The position numbers and the translations under genes were made by a program. The notes beneath the pieces were generated by a model. The model did not search any database. It saw only the letters and a list, made by a program, of their open reading frames with translations, and had not been told where the DNA came from. Source: Hygrocybe punicea (Eukaryota; Basidiomycota; Agaricomycetes; Agaricales; Hygrophoraceae). Taken from it: a DNA stretch of 64,000 nt. The first letter of the stretch is position 1. The number at the start of each line of letters is the position of its first letter. Below, piece after piece: positions 945 to 49,648 of the stretch. The DNA is taken from the NCBI GenBank assembly GCA_963556145.1, contig OY744464.1, positions 3,968,001 to 4,032,000 on the forward strand. The letters run 5' to 3'.

Positions 945-3900
945 ATGCAGTCTAGAGAGATTCAACAACTGGTGGAAATGGTGAGTTCATTTCTGCTGAT
1001 CAGCAGGTCTTCTTGAAGCGCCCATCCTGTTGTTTAGGGGGCCACTGTCTCCCAAGCACGCGCTGCTTTGAGACAATATAAAGATGTCATGCAAGCGGCG
1101 GAACGAATATTTGAGGGACAATTCGACAACTTCCGGGATGAGCAGGAAGATGTTCAAATGGACTTAGACAACGAAAATGATAAAACCAAGTTCAAAAAAT
1201 CACAGAGATTGGCGGTACGTGTGCGGCAGCGGACTGCACTTGATACTGAAACACCGATGCAGACTCCTGAAGAAGACGAAGAAGCTGATGGGGAGGAGCC
1301 AGATGAAGGAGAGGACGATGGTCAGTTATGTGAATCTATGTGGTGCAGTTTCTGAACCACGAGCACAGTTGACTTTGTGGATTACGACTCGGATTACGAG
1401 ACGCGAGCAGATCCTGACAGAACAGTAGTCGACGTTGATCCATATTCCGGTACGAGATTCCCATCGCCTTGGTCGGTGATTCTAACAGCAATATAGGCAT
1501 TTTTTTCTCGAAGGATCGCCGTGAAGAAGTGATAGAGGTAGAAGAGGAACCTGAAGTGGCCTTTTTTCCCGATTTGAACGAGCGAGTAAAGCTTATGACT
1601 CAAGGTCAATGGATGAAAGGTTGTCCAGAGGGCGGAGAACAGAGTTTTTTATTTGGGCTCTATTCTGAGCTGAGTTCTGGGGAATATTTCTGCCCTCATG
1701 AATGTGGAGCTTCAATGACTCGGAAGAAGAGTGATTTTTTTTCGATATATGTAAGTCTTGCCAAGTTTTTATCAATTTACTCATCATTTACGCAGCATGA
1801 AGTCCGATTTCTCTATATACATTGAACAGCTGCGAAAGATTGTTCGACAGACATGTCAGCGCTGTCTATTGACATCATGTTTTGCCTGCGGTGAAACTAT
1901 TTCTGGAGACAAGTTCCGACGTCCCTCTGCTTCGACAGATGATGATCCCTTGTTTCATTGTTCGAATCTACAAGGCGTCATACTAGGTGTTGGTCTTGCT
2001 ATGCTGGAGCAGATGTTCTCCGAGCAAAGTCAAGAATGCGCAGGTGACCAAGATCCCAGGGCCAAAAACACCAAGAAGCGGAAGATGGTCATCCCAACTA
2101 GCCAAATTCTTAGCCAGGATGTTGATGACGACGACGAGGTTTACTATGCCAATGTACCAGGAAAGAAAGTGAAGGGCGGGATTGGTTACGCAGGTGACCA
2201 AAGAGAGGATGTGAGTTCTACGCTTACATTGGCGAGGATGTGACTTTACTAATTCTACTCAGACATCCGGGCAAATAGAAGCCCAGGCCAATCAACGCGC
2301 AAAAGACGAAAAGATTGGTCAACTCCTCTCTCGCATTCGTGTCTACCTCCCTTCGCTTCATCGGCCTGGTGGTGGTCGGACGAGTGATTACCTCGTACAC
2401 CCAACTACATTGGCTCACTTGAGGAGGCGATTCAATTATGTTTGTAGCTCTCTTCTCAGGAACGATTCCCTGGCCGACATGTCCGACCGTTCTGTACTAT
2501 ATTTCGAGCTATTGGAGTGGCTCGAGGTAAGTAAAGGCACAACCCTTTATCCCTCCATTTCCTGAGATCTCCTCCCGATAGACTATATCCAACCACGAAG
2601 CCTTGGCCAGCATGATGGCAATGCCCATAATGGTTGTTGCGTCTGTCAAGGCCATCACAACGAAGAGGACGTCCTCGAAATTGGATGCGCGCATACGGGA
2701 ACGCACGATTGTCTACGAAGGCAGCTCTGGTCCTCGGGAGCTCCTGGAGGCCATCGCAATTCAAGCACAAGCCGCCTTGAAGAGCCTGGAAGGATCGAAA
2801 TCTTCAGAGGTTGTTCCAGACGAAATGACAGAAGAGCAGAAGAGGATGACGAATGACGCAAAAGGGAAAACGAAGGAACCGACATCGGCCGTTTCTGACG
2901 AAAATTTAAAATTACTTACTTTCTGTCGACGTATCCTGGCGACTGCCAACGCCATAGATCGATCACTGCGCGATACCAAAGGCGATGCTTTTGTTAATCG
3001 ATTGCATGCGTCTCTCCCAAAGATTTTCACTTCATCATCCTATTTACCCATCGATCCCGGCTCAACTGAAGAAAGCGCGCGCAAAGCTTACGTTGAATGG
3101 GCCACTCGAGTTAGGTTCGAATATTGCGATCTTGCCTTACCGATCGAAAGCGCCGCGAAGAACGCTTTGAAGGAAGAGGATTTAGTTCCCCATTACAAGT
3201 TCTACTACAACAATGAAGCCCGGATGTTGGCTAACTCCGATATACCCAAGCGGTCGTTGGCTATCGCTAAAGAAGTATGTTCTCAAACTAGCTTGTTAAG
3301 CCCACCTGTGATCTTACTCTATGTGATATAGTTAGCAATTCTCACCACAAATTTACCAGTCGCTTGGGATTCATCAATATTTTTGCGAGTCGATGAAACT
3401 CGTGTCGATATAATCAAGGCTCTCATCACTGGGCCAGAAGGCACTCCGTAAGTAGCCACCCTATATGCCCTTATTCCTTCACTCATGTTCTCCCGAAATG
3501 ATTGTAGTTACTACAATGGCTGGTCCGTGACACCCTCCTTCCAACAGTAACCACAACTTTGAAATGACTTCTCTGGCAGTTATTTGTTCGACATATTTCT
3601 TGGGCCGAGTTATAACCAGTCTCCACCGAGTGTCAAATATATGACGGTGAGCCCCCCGACCCCACCTAAACAAAAATAAATCTACAATAAGGCAACCATC
3701 ATCAGACCAACGGTGGAAAGTTTCGTTTCAACCCTAATCTCTACGCGGTATGTCTTTCGAGATTTTATTTTTTCCTGAATTTGACAACTACTGGTATACT
3801 GGTCAGGATGGCAAAGTATGCCTATCTCTCTTGGGGACATGGTCTGGTCCTGGCTGGATATCGGGGAAATCAACACTACTTCAGGTGTGTCGCCCCATCC

Positions 3901-4442
3901 CTCACATGCACCTGACTCACTAGCCTACCTGTTAGGTGTTGATTTCTATACAATCAATGATTTTATGCGAGGAACCATATTTGAATGAACCTGGCTGGGC
4001 TTCCAGTGGCGGTACTCCCCAATCACATGCATGTTAGTTAACATGTTGCTCGATCCACATTCCCACTCATTCGTAGGCAGATTCTGCAAGTGTTCGGCGG
4101 ATGGTGGTCAGGACAGCGGTATGATTTGTCGTTCTTGTTCTTGCATCTAGTTTATTGAGCCATGACATGCAGATGCTTGGAAATTTACACAACCCTCCAG
4201 AACCATTCGGTGACATTATTCGCACCCATTTCCGACTCAAGGCACAATCTATCGTAGCTCAGTTGGACCGATGGGTAACTCAAGATGACGGGAAACCCAT
4301 CACTGCGGATGGAGGAACCTATATTGGAACCAAGCCAGAAGCCGGATCCAGTTCAAATGGCTTTGTGAAAGATGTCAATGAGATGAAGAACATTCTAAAG
4401 CAGTTGCAAGAAGATGAGGGATCGAGCAGTTGGCGGTCTTGA
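945..4442 (+). CDS. UBA-domain E2 ubiquitin-conjugating enzyme, UBE2O/BIRC6 type
   Basis: A large E2 of roughly 890 residues in about 14 exons. The ATG at 945 is chosen because its 12-codon exon joins across a 57-bp intron (981-1037) to a UBA-like segment (about residues 1-40: IQQLVEMGATVSQARAALRQ). An acidic linker and a Cys-rich segment (about 1615-1910) follow, then a helical middle. The UBC core lies at about 3340-4130 and carries FNPNLYADGKVCLSLLGTW; the catalytic Cys codon is 3819-3821. The usual HPN is NPN, as in BIRC6. The GKVCLSLLGTW-x-W context is shared with UBE2O, BIRC6 and plant PHO2/UBC24-like E2s, which can act as combined E2/E3 enzymes. The intron inside the UBC core splits the tract in small exons with clean GT-AG borders. 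TGA at 4440-4442 ends the protein. Substrates cannot be told from sequence. The carrier gene follows 220 bp downstream on the same strand. Confidence 0.88.
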
Positions 4443-4662
4443 CGGACAGTACGGTAAACGACAGTGTATTATTTTATCGTCTGTCAAGGCGTACAGGTGA
4501 TTGGCTTCGTATGATTGATTTGGAAGTTTGAGCAACGGGTGCATGTGATTTCATTCATCTTGACATGCTCCATCGGTACCCAGATATAAGTGATCTGGCT
4601 GGGAACCGGTCTTTCCCCCCTCCTCCGTTTTGTAAAGTGACCTGTCAATCTCGACTTCGACA

Positions 4663-5973
4663 ATGAGCGACTCTGTTATCCATGCCTTGGCCGGCGCTGC
4701 GGGTGGGATTGTCGCTATGGGGGCTACTTAGTGCGATTATCCTTTATTCGAATCATGAAGTCTGTCTGATCCAGGTTTTTAGCCCTCTTATCTTCTTGTC
4801 CACAAGAGCAGCTGTGGAAACGAAGAGTGAGCTCAAGGTCAGACTCCGGAGTGGTACCCATCGCGAGATCTGAACGGGTCAAGAAACTAATTCTTGGTAC
4901 CTAGTCGGTGTACCGAGTTGTGATTGACACCGTTAAGCGAGAAGGCGTTTTTGGCTTGTATGGTGGTCTCGGCTCGAGTTTGCTGGGTATTGCCGTTACA
5001 AACGGGTATGATTTGACCTTAACGCTATGTTCAGTTTACGAAATTCCGTAGGGTTTATTACTATTTCTATGAGCGTTCGCGAAGTATTGTTGTCAAATCA
5101 AGGAGAGGGGGCAAAGGCTTGAGTACAGCTGAATCTCTTTTGATTGGCTTTATTGCAGGTAGACACTTCCCAGTCCTGCTCTTAAGTTATCCCTATTCAA
5201 CCATAGCGCAGGATCGGCGACAACAATCATCAGTAACCCAATATGGGTCATCCAGACTTCGCAAGCAGTCCGTACGCTGAATCAAGCATATCCCACTTCT
5301 TCACCATCGAACGTTCTTAAGGAGCTTGGATTCGTGGAAACTATTCAGAACATCCTTTCAACGGACGGCATCTCTGCATTTTGGCGTGGTATTGGTCCAG
5401 CCCTGGTCCTGGTCATCAACCCTGTGTTGCAGTACACTGTCTTTGAGCAATTGAAAAACTTTCTCATTGCAAGGAGGACAGCAAAAATGGGAGCTGCCGG
5501 AGTTGTAGACACTGTTGCAATATTATCAGATTGGGACTTCTTTCTTCTCGGGGCTTTGTCCAAGCTGGGTAAGCTGATACCTCAGTTTTGCTCTCTCGCT
5601 AATTGGTATTCCAGTGGCGACATCCGCAACGTATCCGTATATGTTTGTATTTTTTTCACTGAGAGAATTCTTGACTAATGGAGGCTGACCGATAGCGTCG
5701 TGAAAAGCCGGTTACAAGCCGGACATGCTAATGCCCTGAAATACAAGTCTTCTCTCGATGGCTTACTCACCATCCTGAGGGAAGAGGGTGTTGAAGGGCT
5801 TTACAAAGGTGTTGGCAGTAAGCTCATCCAGAGTGTTCTAACAGCTGCTATCCTCTTCGCGGGACAAAGAAGGATATACGAACTGACAAAGAAGGTGCGT
5901 ATATTCCCCTCACTGTCAAGACCAAGCTGACCGGTTGGTGCAGGCCATCAGTCCTGTGTTGTCAGTGAAGTGA
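4663..5973 (+). CDS. Mitochondrial-carrier-family transporter, peroxisomal (PMP47/ANT1/SLC25A17) type
   Basis: A solute carrier of about 310 residues in several exons with the three-repeat layout of the family. The start gives MSDSVIHALAGAAGGI, the usual first helix. Each repeat has its signature: PLIFLSTRAAVET (about 4780), NPIWVIQTSQAVR (about 5240) and TYPYIVVKSRLQAG (about 5680-5720), each followed by the G-x-x-x-LY/FWRG-type matrix helix (EGVFGLYGGL, ISAFWRGIG, EGVEGLYKGV). The NPIWV form in repeat two is typical of peroxisomal adenine-nucleotide carriers and related NAD/pyrimidine carriers, so a role in importing ATP or a cofactor into peroxisomes is the likely reading; the exact substrate is not determined. 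The last exon (5944-5973) ends in TGA. Oddity: the junction after the first exon (near 4720-4790) lacks a strong canonical donor; the best fit is a weak GTCGCT donor after 4719. Confidence 0.87.
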
Positions 5974-6787
5974 GGCCAATTAATTTCATAATATATACTC
6001 GATACAAATATGAGTATTATATGACCTTCCCACACTAGTGCCTAATGATAGTAGCTGATCATGAGTACTAACTGGAAACTGGAGCATCTGGCCACAGTGA
6101 GTTATCCAGGTTGGTATCACATGCATGTATTGAAGGAGTCCAGTGTTGTCAAGACCAAGGAAGATATGATGTTGGGTCCACTGACACAGACAACTACATC
6201 AGCAAAACCAGATCGGAGAACTAGCGCTATGTAGCTTAGTCATAACATTCATAGCAATTATAGCCTCCTAGAGAAGTCCTTGTTTCATAACAATAGCTAG
6301 CGTCGCCCGTGCTCTACATAGCATCACATAGGTGCGTGCAATTTTCTACAGACTATATAGTACTGGCACCTCTTCTGTATAGCGACACATAGTAGTGCGG
6401 CTCGGCTATATAGTATTGATGCCTCGTCTGTATAGCGACACCTAGCAGTGTGGCTCGACTATACAGTGTCATATAGCAGTGCGGCTTGGCTATACAGTGC
6501 CACGTAGTGGGGCGGCACAGCTATCAAGTGTGTCATAGACCTTATAGTACTGTAGTAGTATAGGTTGCTTGCTCTGGCTTTGTTTTCGCAGTAAATCATC
6601 AAATTATGATTAGTTACTATGAGGCATCGGCACACAGTCTGAACCTCAAATATGACAATAGAAAAAAAGGGGGAGTAAAAATATGGAAGAGGGATAAGCA
6701 GCGAGAGGATGGAGTCCTATTTGAGGAGATTTAGCTTGCATTATTGTAGTATCATGTCACGAACTTACCACACATATAGTTCCTTTC
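5974..6787. other. AT-rich spacer at the left edge of the TE island
   Basis: No open frame or RNA gene recognised. It includes the tandem repeat at 6353-6520 and otherwise AT-rich sequence with many TATAG/CTATA words. Marks the transition from gene space to the element-rich region. Confidence 0.5.
6353..6520. repeat. Degenerate tandem repeat, two 53-bp and two 31-bp units
   Basis: Units begin CTATAYAGT and end TGCGGCTYGG or similar. Starts are at 6353, 6406, 6459 and 6490. The last two units lack an internal 22-bp segment (GCCTCKTCTGTATAGCGAC-like), so they are shortened copies of the first two. Confidence 0.7.
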
Positions 6788-43340: not shown

Positions 43341-43676
43341 TTCGGCGACTATTCCCAACAAGAACCACTAATAAGATTAGAAACTGAATATTCACAAAGC
43401 AGGGAGAAATCTGATCACTCCTTTGAACACTAATGTTTTGATAATAAAACATTCAAATATGAACAGATTTCTTTGAAAATAGAGGTCTTTAAATAAATAT
43501 ATGAGCAACTTTCTGTCTACTCAGATTTTGTTCAAGATAATTTGGCTACTTGTGGCATTTTAGGTTAATTTTTGTGTTCAAAGGAGCTGTATATAGTCTG
43601 CTTTTGGAAACGGAGTCTAAATACTTTTCCGGGGTCTTTGCGGTATTGGAATTGTGTCCCACGATAAGGTGAAAAT

Positions 43677-43703
43677 AGGCCTATGTAACAGGCCTGTGGA
43701 GAC
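43677..43703 (+). repeat. Left terminal inverted repeat of the DUF6729 transposon
   Basis: Starts AGGCCTATGTAACAGG. The partner, read in reverse, starts AGGCCTATGTCCCAAG; both end CTGTGGAGAC. Four mismatches in 27. Confidence 0.85.
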
Positions 43704-43799
43704 CTTAGTCTTAATCCGGACTAAGGACATGCACCGCCACCAGGACAATGACTAAGCATACATGAGGCTCACTCATATCGCTCGTTTGCTCGTCTCTTC

Positions 43800-46700
43800 A
43801 TGGATCAATCAGCAGTGACGGCCGCTACATCCTCTGGATCAAGGACGGAACCTGCAAAGCGGAAGTATGGTGAGAACTGGGGAGGTTTTCGGGAGGGAGC
43901 GGGGAGGAAGAAACTCGGGCGGTCCACGACAAATTCCGGACCAGCGACGACTTCTATGGATCAAGAATCAGTACGGCCTGCAGAATCAGACATTTTCTTC
44001 ATGCACCGAAGTCGAAGCTTTCCTTTTCCATCAACAACGGCTTCTCTTGAACCTGGAGCATCCCAGGCAACTCCAATGAGTGAGGCCCTGGAGAACGGAT
44101 CGTCGGGGGGCTTGTGTGCGGAAGAAGGTCACAACAGTGATTATTTACATATTCTTTTGTGTGTAATCTATTCTGATTTCGCATTCTTCAGCCTCAAATT
44201 TGCCGCTGACGCATGAAGAATTCACCAGGTTAGAAGAAGCCATGTCGTTTATCAAGGAGAACGACGAGCATCGGGACATTGTGAACGGTGTACAAGTAAT
44301 CGACGATAGCATATCTAATGGAATTCTTGACACAAATGAAGATGCGCCCCGTATTGCTCAAGAAGAAACCGAATTCTCTGAAGCCCGAGAACAGTCTGTG
44401 GTCCACCAGCATCTGAGTGCCGCTCTCAAGCAGATCAAGAAGGACATTCGAGATTATAAACAGCCTGCATGCTATCGTCGAGGTCATTTTTTTATCCGTC
44501 CGAAGCATGCTGTTTTTGCGTTGCATGATGCAGTGTTGACGGGGCTTCAACCGGATCGTCTATGCTCTCGTGACATTTTTGTGTGGCTCCCTACGTATCT
44601 TCCAGGCGCGCCAGATTTCTTCAAGTGTATCTGTAATGGCCGGTTGTCATTAAACGGTATGTTTCTTTGAGGTCATCACAGTCCGCTATCTAATTTCCAA
44701 TTTCAGGATATAACAGTGACCCGATTGCCCGTCGAGTGCGATGCTTTCCATCAGACTACTACATTCTCACAAGCCGCTTCATTTGTGATAAGCGGCGGGA
44801 CAATGACGCTGGCTGTGGCACCAGCTGGCAGGGTACCGATCCGCATATCATTGCTCAACTACCACGGTTTGTCTCAGCTGCGTTTCCAGGTAAGTCTTTG
44901 CTATATATTCTACACTTCAAGGTAATGTCTCACATGTAACCAGCATATATTAGTGCTTGTGGAGCAATTGATAAGAGGACAATGTCGCAAATGTGCAATA
45001 ATTTTGCAACTCGCTTTGGACCTGCGCCGTTTTCGGCTATGATGTCCGAGCTTCAGCATAAAGAGCATGCAGAGCTTGAGCTGATGTATTACGATGCCGC
45101 TCGACACTACAATCTTTACGGTCCTCAACAGATTCCACAATTCTCTTCATTCAAGGATCCTCTTCGATATGGGGGTGCTCCGCCCTCAGTGCAATACCTG
45201 AAGGCAATGTTTGTTGATTGGGTCACAGCGCACCGTATCTTTATAGAACGAGCACAAGCATGTCTCCCTGCTACAGTTATGAAGGTTGATCATACATTTG
45301 ATGTAAGATCATCCCTCTTATTCGCTGTCCATGCATACTAAAATTTCAATTAGTATCTCAAATATATGGGAGGCCTTAACGGTCAAAAGATCCATGAGGC
45401 TTCGTACACTAATGTCAACCAGTTTGAGGAAGTTCGGTCAATCACCCTAGTCCCGTCGAAATCACTCTCCTTTGTTACAGATCAGCTGAAGGGCGTTTCA
45501 GCTGGTTTGGCTGAGAATGGACACCCGCCGTGTAGTCTTCTATACACAGACAATCCACAAGGTATTTTATTTATTTTAAATCAGATACAAATCTCACAAG
45601 TATTGTAGTCGAGCGAGGATTTCATGAAGCAATTACTCCATCTTTACGACAAGATGTTGAGCATATTACTTTGTGGACAAATCTGCCCCAATTTCAATGT
45701 GCACACGAGGTTCACCGAGAATTTACTGATGATACTATTGTGATGGACGAGCTTTGCTTTGACATCCTTGAGGAAGTCAGAAATACTCCCATGTCACATT
45801 TTGTGGTTGCGGTGTCAATACAAACGACGCATTTGCCAGAAAGTGGCTCAGCGGACTCTGGTAACCAGACTATTCAGGCGATTCAGCTCCGGACAAAAGA
45901 TCAGAATATTGTATTCAGGGTAAGTAACAAGAACCTCCTGCTTATTCACTCACTGTACTCATAAGCATAATAGACTTCTAATATCACCGCAAATATTCAT
46001 TTCCCTCCCTCGCTTCAAGCAATTCTCACCAATACGTCAATTCTTAAATTGGGGTGTCACGTTCAACAACTTCTCCTTGATGTTGCAAACATATATGGCA
46101 ACATAGAGATCCAGCGGGCTGCAATGAAGTCAAACTCATCCCACATTGAGCTTGGCCAATATGCAAAGCTGAAGGGTCTTGTCTCTCATGGATCTGCACC
46201 TCTTCAGACCCTGGTTGGAGCAGTTCTTGAAAAGTCCTTTGTGCCTCCAGTGTTTCCCCCATCTGGTTATTGGAACTCAGAGTACACAACCCAACTTCAT
46301 CACCACATAGAGGCTATCTGGCAAGTTTATCTCTCCCTTGGCCAACAGGAATCTGTAGGACTTCCTCTTGCACCATACCAGAAAAATTGCAACAATCTTC
46401 CTGTCACTCTCTGCCACAGCAACAAGCCAGTGGCTGAAGCCATCCTTGTCTGGCCTCACGATGGATCCATACAGGCAGTGAACGATGATGCTGGTTCACT
46501 TCGGAAAATCAATATCACTGCTTCTCGCTCTCTCATCAAACTCACTTGCATTTTGGTCCCAGGATATGTTCATGCCATCCATTCTCAGTGTATTCAGTGG
46601 ATCTACACACATGGACAGTTGGCAGTTGTAACAACTTCAACCCTACGAACACGAAGCGAGAGATCTCCACTGTCTATCCCTACATCTGAGGCATCACTTG

Positions 46701-48959
46701 CTTGTGCATTTGCATCTCCTGCCCCAATTTCTCCCACACCAGCTGATATGGTTGAACCACTCACACTCTCAATATCTGAATCTGAGAGTTCCGGTTCCAG
46801 CCTTGTTCCGCCTGCCACTGACACAGGAGAAGAGTCTGACGACGACAACTTCGAGCCTGAGCCTTCTGATGGCCAATCAGCCAATGCTCTTGATGATGAG
46901 GGACCAGCAGATGATGTGGTATTTATTTCCTCTTTCTTCTTCAATAATATATCTCATATATCATTTAAGGATGTTGTAATGCAGTCTGAGACATCTACAA
47001 CATTAACACTGCCAACCCGTGTATTTGATGATGCTTTTCACTTTATGGATCGTCTAGAGCGCCTTCTCGCAAAGAAGCATAGTGCATATAGGCGGTTTGT
47101 TCACGATTTTTCAGAAGCCATCTTTATCCGTGACAAGGATGATGTACGTCGTGTCAAAGCTGTTCTTCAATTGAAGAATATTGACTGGGACTACACTGTA
47201 CGAGCAAATGCATCTTCACTCAACCGCCATATCCGAAGAGAAATCCCTAATCCCAGAATCCTTGTCGCACGGCTTGAAAAACTGTTCAATGGCTATCGAA
47301 ATGTACTGTGTACTACTCTGACAGGACGTTCAGCACTCTTCTTCTCCAAGGAGGCCTGGTCCATGGCCCAACGTCTTCTTGAGACAGCTCGGCTAGGCTA
47401 TTTATCTGACCCACCTGGAATTCCACTCTACTATCAAATGGGCATTGACAAAGATGGTCTTCCCATTTATCGGACAATTCGTGGCACAAACTCTGTTGAA
47501 GGAGGAGTTCATATGGCAGTCCGTCGCATATTTGGATCACTCCAGGCATCCCCAGAATTATCTGAGTCTCTATTACTGAACTGGATATTACGTCGGAATA
47601 AGACAGTATGTATTAACTTATTCACCCTCTATTTCTTATAGCTTTCTTTCAGGTTGGCCATCGAAATCGGACTGGTCAAAAGTATCATGGGCATTTTGAC
47701 CTCTGGCTCACTGATGAAATCATTGAACTTGTTACTGAGCTTGGTGTTAAAGCCTCATTCCCAGCTCCCCCTGTTCTTGTCACTCGCATAGCTACTTCAG
47801 AGACTTTTGGCATTGTTCCACTTTCAACACAACTGGCAGAAAAGTACAACATTACTGCATTACCTATTCGACGTGTTACAGGTATTCCACATCATCACGA
47901 TGTTCCTGTCCACACTCTCACGAGGCTCTCAACCTCCCCGATGAACCGATATCGCTACCTACAACTTCGTCAGCGCACTCTCTTCCCTATCACGCCAGTT
48001 CATACTTTTGCTGAGTATGCAAAATTCAAAAAAGAAATCAATGACCGCCAATTCAAGAAGAGGAATTTAAAGAAGACTTACCCTCCGCATGAGGCATACA
48101 AGACTGTTGACTTCCACCGGCTCACAATTGCCTGGAACTCTGCGGTCGACAACCAAAGTCGCACGGAGACAGATTCTAACAAACGGTTGTACTATAAACT
48201 TCCATCACAACTCGAACGACACTACAAAAGGACACTTAACTGGAAGTCTGAATGCGCTACAATCTTGATGGGAGGTAATGCGGAATCCTTGAAGCCGTTC
48301 CGTGACCTATTAATAAATGAGAACACTACGTCAACACTTCCACCGTCAATACTTCCCGAGATACCGGCTGGACTGAAGGACAATTGCTACGGAGAAGAAG
48401 GTGAGATTTTATATTGATCTATTAAATGTTTTTTCCTCACCGTCGTCAAGATTTTATGTCGCTCAATCAATCATTGACATTTGATTCTCACATCAACCCA
48501 CGGCCTGCACACGAGCAGCCGGGCACCCTCTACATTCAAGTAGCGTCAGAAAACAGTTCTATTCCCATACCTCACCTAGCCGAACAACTTGCTCTTTCCA
48601 TGCCAACGGAAACCCAGCAGCCAGAAAACGCACCGCTCGAAAACCGGCCACATGCAACTCAGCACATGCAACCACCGCCTAACACACAAACTGTGCTGAA
48701 TCTCGATGGACCCGGTGAATCACCGTCACGTCGCTTGTTTGTGCTCCCGGCCGCTGGGGAGAGTGCTGGTGTTGACAGAAGGAAAGGGGACCGATGCGCA
48801 CGCTGTGTGAAGGCCCTCTGCCCAAAGCGGTTTGTGTGCGCAGGCCGTGGATGTCGTGATAGTTGCAGCTGTGACCATCCTCAGTTGAAGCCTGGAGAAA
48901 AGGTCCGAATATCTGAAAAAGAAGTTAAACGGCGGCTTGCGGAAATGGGACCGACATGA
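43800..48959 (+). CDS. DUF6729-like protein, candidate DDE transposase (1,563 aa)
   Basis: Ten exons: 43800-44127, 44192-44656, 44707-44889, 44944-45302, 45354-45561, 45609-45919, 45974-46918, 46970-47605, 47653-48400 and 48451-48959. They sum to 4,692 nt, exactly 1,564 codons, with GT-AG borders and no internal stop. Residues 26-40 are NWGGFREGAGRKKLG, a basic Gly-rich segment of possible DNA-binding type. About 215-330 fits DUF6729 (RRGHFFIRPKHAVFALHDAV, RDIFVWLPTYLPG) with Cys 254, 256, 291 and 301 as possible metal ligands. Candidate acidic catalytic residues are D441 (KVDHTFD), D511 (YTDNPQVERGF) and E1110 (GTNSVEGGVHMAVRRI), separated by a Ser/acidic insert (about 840-940). The C terminus has a Cys cluster (about 1510-1537, CARCVKALCPKRFVC...CSC). 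Position between inverted repeats argues for transposase function; this and the DDE assignment are inference. Confidence 0.82.
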
Positions 48960-49499
48960 TTCTAACAGATTTGTTTTGTAACTCGTAGTAGTCAGAGACT
49001 GTATATTGAAAGTAAAACAATGCTAACATACCTTTTATCATCATTGCAATCCCTTCCGCTGAACCTGAATCACTCCATGGGTGCCACCAAGATTTAAGTT
49101 GCTGAAATTGCCGGCTGTTGGATTGTTGTGAGACTGAACTGTAAGACGCGATGTTGCCAGGAATGAGTCGTGCTGCCAGAGACGTCCCAGGTAATGAATC
49201 CAGCAAACTCGCGATCAACGACGACGTGACATAACAACGTGATTGTGACGAAAACGCGGAAAGATGTGTCATCTTGATTTTGATTGGCTGGGTCCTTAGT
49301 CCAAAAAGAGCTCTGCCTTTTCGAGACTAAGGACTTGATTCCGAAAAAGGACATGGGCCATCCAGGTTGTTCACACGCTTTCTGAATAGTTTCACCCGGT
49401 TTTACAGCAGAAAGAGTTGCAACTGGTAGCCAGGTAAGTCTAGGATACCCTCCCTCTTTCTCTCTCCTCTCTCCTCTTTTTCAACTTGATTTTCACTCC

Positions 49500-49526
49500 G
49501 TCTCCACAGACTTGGGACATAGGCCT
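49500..49526 (-). repeat. Right terminal inverted repeat of the DUF6729 transposon
   Basis: Ends GGGACATAGGCCT, the inverse of the left end; followed at once by the target copy GAAAAT. Confidence 0.85.
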
Positions 49527-49648
49527 GAAAATATATGATTCCTGAATATATTTATTCTTACGGACAGGCTCCATCATTGTTGGCTTATGTAATAGATGCG
49601 TCTCTGGTCATCAAAGTTTGGGCCGCATCATGAAAAAGTTCTCAGGCT

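Follow-up and report, generated by a model that had tools for sequence, protein, structure and literature searches.

Here, we analysed a 64,000-nucleotide stretch of the genome of the basidiomycete Hygrocybe punicea (contig OY744464.1, positions 3,968,001 to 4,032,000), hereafter referred to as the window, and describe a 5,848-bp element that it contains. The element is probably an autonomous DNA transposon of the cut-and-paste type, belonging to a superfamily of which we have found no description. It encodes a single protein, a proposed DDE transposase core with a Werner-type exonuclease insert, and integrates with an 8-bp stagger. An initial annotation of the window had proposed an intact, possibly active DNA transposon. 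An intact transposon that has moved recently is supported. Four full-length copies, perfect 8-bp target duplications at independent sites and three acidic residues conserved in more than 100 rows of a protein alignment are beyond chance.

Copies, termini and target duplications

The element and its ends comprise the following features.

43678..49525, + strand: complete element, 5,848 bp; the genome has four full-length copies
43678..43703, + strand: left terminal inverted repeat, 26 bp, matching the right one at 22 of 26 positions
49500..49525, - strand: right terminal inverted repeat, 26 bp
43670..43677, no strand: left 8-bp target duplication, TGAAAATA
49526..49533, no strand: right 8-bp target duplication, TGAAAATA
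43703..43726, no strand: subterminal palindrome CCTTAGTC..GACTAAGG at the left end, a possible protein-binding site
49294..49332, no strand: subterminal inverted pair CCTTAGTC..GACTAAGG at the right end, a possible protein-binding site

The genome (92.2 Mb, 42 contigs) was searched with the left and right ends of the element. Four full-length copies were found, all of 5,848 bp and free of insertions and deletions, so the further copies with the same ends that the initial annotation had suggested looking for are three in number. Two of them, L006 and L007, are on contig C41, in inverted orientation and 4.3 kb apart, with 0 differences over 5,848 bp. The third, L008, is on C6. The window copy differs from L006 or L007 at 14 positions and from L008 at 16, while L006 or L007 differ from L008 at 22. 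The copies start with GGCCTATGT and finish with ACATAGGCC. The ends had been placed at 43677 and 49526. Because agreement of the other three full copies with the left end starts at the second base of that placement, the true ends are one base inward on each side, and the outer A and T of the proposed AGGCC...GGCCT termini are part of the target duplication, outside the element. The inverted repeats are indeed present at both ends, with 23 of 27 matches in the earlier frame; with GG ends they are 26 bp long and have 22 matches.

The target duplication is perfect (8/8) at the window copy and at L008, which is flanked on both sides by CAATAGCT. A 6-bp duplication, GAAAAT, had been proposed; it is ruled out since the other copies place the ends one base inward and 8 bp are duplicated, GAAAAT being the inner part of TGAAAATA. 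Therefore, the size of the duplication is no argument against hAT or MULE, as it had been taken to be. On C41, the duplications are swapped between the two copies: TTGCGTTC is present in the outer left flank of L006 and, as its reverse complement, in the inner flank of L007, and CGATTTTC is present in L006 on the inner side and in L007 on the outer side. These duplications are also 8/8, seen across the inversion. The swap fits the pattern left by recombination between two inverted insertions, with the DNA between them inverted, and it fits an assembly error at identical copies alike. Composite transposition of the pair was ruled out, as its outer flanks are not duplicates of each other. Thus, this family has four insertions with 8-bp duplications, two of these seen only across the C41 rearrangement, and insertion with an 8-bp stagger is shown. 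It is extremely unlikely that the copies arose by segmental duplication or as an assembly artefact instead of transposition. The identical, inverted C41 pair would suit such an origin, as a joining error could swap flanks, but the flanks are unrelated outside the element (blastn, no long flank match) and the duplications at the window and at L008 are perfect.

Short non-autonomous copies were considered and rejected. No partner end with at most 7 mismatches was found for a lone left end (C3:4960673) or two lone right ends (C7:6979616 and C1:3905087) in the DNA searched around them (9.8 kb for L009, about 3 kb for L014 and L015). Two further right-type ends on C33 are pattern matches only.

Transposase gene and proposed DDE core

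The gene and its parts can be described as follows.

43800..48959, + strand: transposase gene, 1,561 amino acids, splice sites predicted
43800-44136, 44192-44656, 44707-44889, 44944-45302, 45354-45561, + strand: transposase exons 1-5, predicted
45609-45919, 45974-46918, 46985-47605, 47653-48400, 48451-48959, + strand: transposase exons 6-10, predicted
44560..45122, + strand: DUF6729-like region, residues 236-388, sub-threshold in the window protein
45288..45290, + strand: D444, first acid of the proposed DDE triad
45549..45551, + strand: D514, second acid of the proposed triad
45797..46321, + strand: degenerate Werner-type 3'-5' exonuclease domain, about residues 581-737, spanning intron 6
47498..47500, + strand: E1108, third acid of the proposed triad
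48795..48875, + strand: C-terminal Cys cluster, CARCVKALCPKRFVCAGRGCRDSCSC

The best-scoring splice model has ten exons and nine GT-AG introns, with the ATG at 43800. The single long gene of ten exons, open with GT-AG splicing, that had been annotated was thus recovered, with a predicted length of 1,561 instead of 1,564 residues. With the introns of the window copy applied, both this copy and L008 are open. The data support a protein order of DUF6729, first half of the DDE core, Werner-type exonuclease, a further region, the helix with the E, and the Cys cluster.

In an alignment of 130 rows, among rows with a letter at the position, the first D is conserved in 110/110, the second D in 118/118 and the E in 104/107. 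The acids are separated by 70 and 594 residues in the window protein (medians 70 and 583). The triad had been predicted as D441, D511 and E1110; it most likely corresponds to D444, D514 and E1108, the numbers differing because of a different choice of introns. The order of strands and helices fits an RNase H fold in two predicted models, with moderate predicted template modelling scores (pTM) of 0.64 and 0.50. In fold searches, no transposase chains appeared in the best 50 rows listed, which are filled by exonuclease-type chains.

An inserted Werner-type exonuclease

Between D514 and E1108 lies a domain that the initial annotation had missed. By fold and by sequence profile, it is a WRN-type DEDDy exonuclease. 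The window protein has 0/5 of the catalytic D-E-D-Y-D residues at the aligned positions. These residues read D-E-D-Y-D in 32/39 rows that have no gap at any of the eight scored positions, a subset that leans to intact rows, as degenerate rows align with gaps. In a tree of 107 rows, with the root (support 73) placed on the chytrid and metagenomic rows, the group of the window protein has 56 rows, of which 53 have lost the exonuclease, one is partial and two are intact (P0072 and P0070, near the base). The motif score is rough, and some outgroup rows that it counts as partial show the full set of five when aligned. By this scoring, at least two losses are needed because P0070, which is intact, and P0053, which has lost the site, branch off together. 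The nine outlying rows with printed residues (P0078, P0128-P0133, P0137 and P0139) all retain the catalytic residues, and therefore the intact exonuclease is most likely ancestral. That the exonuclease, and not the DDE core, is the catalytic centre of transposition is highly improbable. It is intact in many relatives, but its catalytic residues are gone in the window protein and in nearly the whole clade (53/56, by the rough score), and yet the window family has moved recently.

Relatives of the protein and DUF6729

The window protein scores 19.2 bits against DUF6729 (PF20499), for which the Pfam cut-off is 27, and its Pfam scan has otherwise only one chance-level match. Its nearest relative scores 28.7, and 20/23 relatives match at E<=0.1. 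DUF6729 is not the catalytic part, since the match (236-388) stops before D444. A protein search, in which 7,999 candidates were scored, gave 78 relatives. The named relatives come from mushrooms, among them Lentinula, Mycena, Hymenopellis and Marasmius; the closest is a protein of Lentinula raphanica, with 59% identity over the searched region. A distant metagenomic row, used as the query, gave 13 proteins including itself, two of them from the chytrid genus Rhizoclosmatium. For one protein, P0133 from Rhizoclosmatium globosum, an OTU-type peptidase domain (PF02338) is listed alongside the exonuclease and DUF6729. Simple patterns found a basic N-terminal motif in 29/77 and a C-terminal Cys motif in 39/77 rows of at least 1,300 amino acids, the window protein included; the C-terminal Cys cluster noted initially is thus present, and its motif occurs in relatives.

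Sister families and junctions in the same genome

At least 18 further places in the genome are over the DUF6729 cut-off. One family, of 5,789 bp, is represented by two copies, L064 and L065, with 17 differences between them. The flanks of L064 are TACGAATC (8/8), with six additional bases at the left end of the element; those of L065 are TTTATTTT (8/8), with 23 additional bases at the left end, which repeat the terminus and the flank (both by eye). With the L064 protein as the query, 51 proteins were retrieved; their genera, among them Gloeophyllum, Boletus, Suillus, Trametes, Amanita and Hericium, span several orders. L066 consists of two head-to-tail copies of a third family, at 1014-6716 and from 6725, sharing one 7-bp spacer; according to where the right end is placed, the sequence that bounds the pair is AACTGAA, of 7 bp, or CAACTGAA, of 8 bp. 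Comparison of the L064 and L066 genes indicates purifying selection (ratio of nonsynonymous to synonymous substitution rates, dN/dS, 0.06 over 1,087 codons, no stops), with dS saturated at about 3.

It is very unlikely that the gene is a passenger, that is, a cellular or viral-type nuclease gene located between ends that the transposase of another element moves. The genome is large and rich in KDZ transposases (at least 186 matches; MULE matches number 22). However, the element has no other gene, the same architecture occurs in at least two families of this genome with different ends, the DDE triad is retained, and the L064-L066 comparison shows purifying selection.

Extra bases between the 8-bp duplication and the left terminus are found in 3/6 resolved insertions: two (CG) in L006, and those of L064 and L065. 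By family, they occur in 2/2 insertions of L064/L065, whose exonuclease is intact, and in 1/4 of the window family. At the right ends of the six insertions, no extra bases were seen.

The 26 variable sites among the window copy, L006 and L008 are all transitions, and 23 involve CpG/TpG: 19 are CpG to TpG by a two-of-three majority and 4 go the opposite way. Within the element, 17% of the cytosines are in CpG. Between L064 and L065, 14/17 differences are transitions and CpG is involved in 9. This is the pattern of 5-methylcytosine deamination, and therefore the copies are probably methylated.

Neighbourhood in the window

Directly to the left of the element, a repeat of about 230 bp (43361-43587) has 38 further matches with 87-94% identity among the best 40; it is perhaps a miniature inverted-repeat transposable element or a short interspersed nuclear element. 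Segment 40126-41993, on the minus strand, has open pieces that resemble Ty1/copia gag, including a CCHC knuckle and a DSG like that of aspartic proteases (by eye). Segment 42530-42790 has microsatellite runs of the three-base type, visible by eye as low-complexity translations.

Proposed mechanism

Binding of the 26-bp ends, and of the CCTTAGTC/GACTAAGG pairs next to them, is probably the task of the basic N-terminal motif, DUF6729 and the C-terminal Cys cluster. The DDE core would excise the element and join it to the target with the 8-bp stagger, a chemistry suggested by the triad D444, D514 and E1108. In relatives with an intact exonuclease, this domain may act on 3' ends, trimming them while the element is excised or the gap is repaired. 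In the window lineage, because the active site is gone, the domain is probably a structural insert. After insertion, the copies decay by CpG-to-TpG change, presumably through methylation. We tentatively propose, as a possibility somewhat short of even, that the exonuclease entered the DDE core before the divergence of the sampled chytrid and mushroom members, that it contributes to transposition by trimming 3' ends when the element is excised or inserted, that the window lineage lost the catalysis and kept only the scaffold, and that the extra bases at the left junctions are traces of this activity; three of six insertions are far too few to show exonuclease processing.

The proposed transposon would provide a likely function for DUF6729 and for many proteins listed only as hypothetical or as 3'-5' exonuclease, and the family may add one superfamily to those of eukaryotic transposons. 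Moreover, with one nuclease fold nested in another, and with sister elements in a single genome that have either an intact or a dead exonuclease, the role of end trimming in cut-and-paste transposition becomes testable.

Comparison with known superfamilies

Several observations weigh against an intact transposon of a separate superfamily. L006 and L007 have one internal stop each when the introns of the window copy are applied. The E is absent in the three remaining rows of 107, among them P0106, the protein of the second structure model, and both models have moderate confidence. No empty site was found in the same genome by a query with the joined flanks (best 40 of 237 candidates), which returned the two flanks themselves and 38 matches to the repeat in the left flank. 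Finally, 56 proteins were scanned with Pfam models, namely the window protein (E limit 1), 23 relatives (0.1) and 32 relatives (1), and the MULE transposase domain PF10551 has a weak match (E 0.067) in 1/32 of the latter and none in the window protein or the other 23.

The element could instead belong to a known superfamily (MULE/IS256-like, hAT or KDZ), as a divergent branch that acquired DUF6729 and the exonuclease insert, which we consider unlikely. In favour of such an origin, beside the weak MULE match, 8-bp duplications are usual in hAT and occur in Zisupton/Dileera and in MULE, the motif GTNSVEGG resembles the third-acid motif of IS256/MULE, and the position of the insert resembles that in hAT. 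A C-terminal dimerisation domain and a BED finger are features of hAT (Pfam). The models for these two, like the KDZ transposase domain PF18758, match none of the 56 scanned proteins, and hhalign against the MULEs of the same genome gave no signal, with profiles too thin to decide. With no KDZ or hAT match and one weak MULE match, we therefore do not file the element in those superfamilies; a distant kinship is possible. The suggestion that it may be a separate superfamily is supported as a possibility.

Our literature search found no paper on DUF6729 and no description of a transposon of this kind; Repbase itself was outside the search. A survey counts 24 superfamilies of eukaryotic DNA transposons in Repbase and, in its accessible part, does not use the word exonuclease (Kojima 2025, PMC12730594). 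According to the same survey, 8-bp duplications are the rule in hAT and are found in the fungal Zisupton and Dileera (KDZ), while IS3EU has a 6-bp duplication and TAYGG ends (PMC12730594). The window element, with 8 bp and GGCC ends, differs from IS3EU in both. It is like Zisupton/Dileera in its 8-bp duplication, but none of the 56 scanned proteins matches the KDZ model, although KDZ is abundant in the same genome. With MULE and IS256, the duplication size is compatible and there is the one weak Pfam match, with no clear sequence relation found.

In hAT, which shares the 8-bp duplication with the window element, the DDE core has a large insert between the second D and the E. In Hermes, a hAT element, the insert is described as all-helical in an RNase H review (PMC3985635), while that of the window protein is an exonuclease. 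ISL2EU (PHIS) is also a transposon that encodes an exonuclease, which is of the YqaJ type and on a second open reading frame, outside the DDE core (PMC4482050). In WRN, the exonuclease is joined to a RecQ helicase. The inserted domain has the same fold and profile, but it interrupts a transposase core in the window protein and lacks the active-site residues. Closest to the window gene are unnamed proteins of Agaricomycetes with PF20499 and PF01612, which belong to the same protein family (up to 59% identity over the searched region); the names shown for them do not describe a transposon, and many have the intact exonuclease that the window protein has lost.
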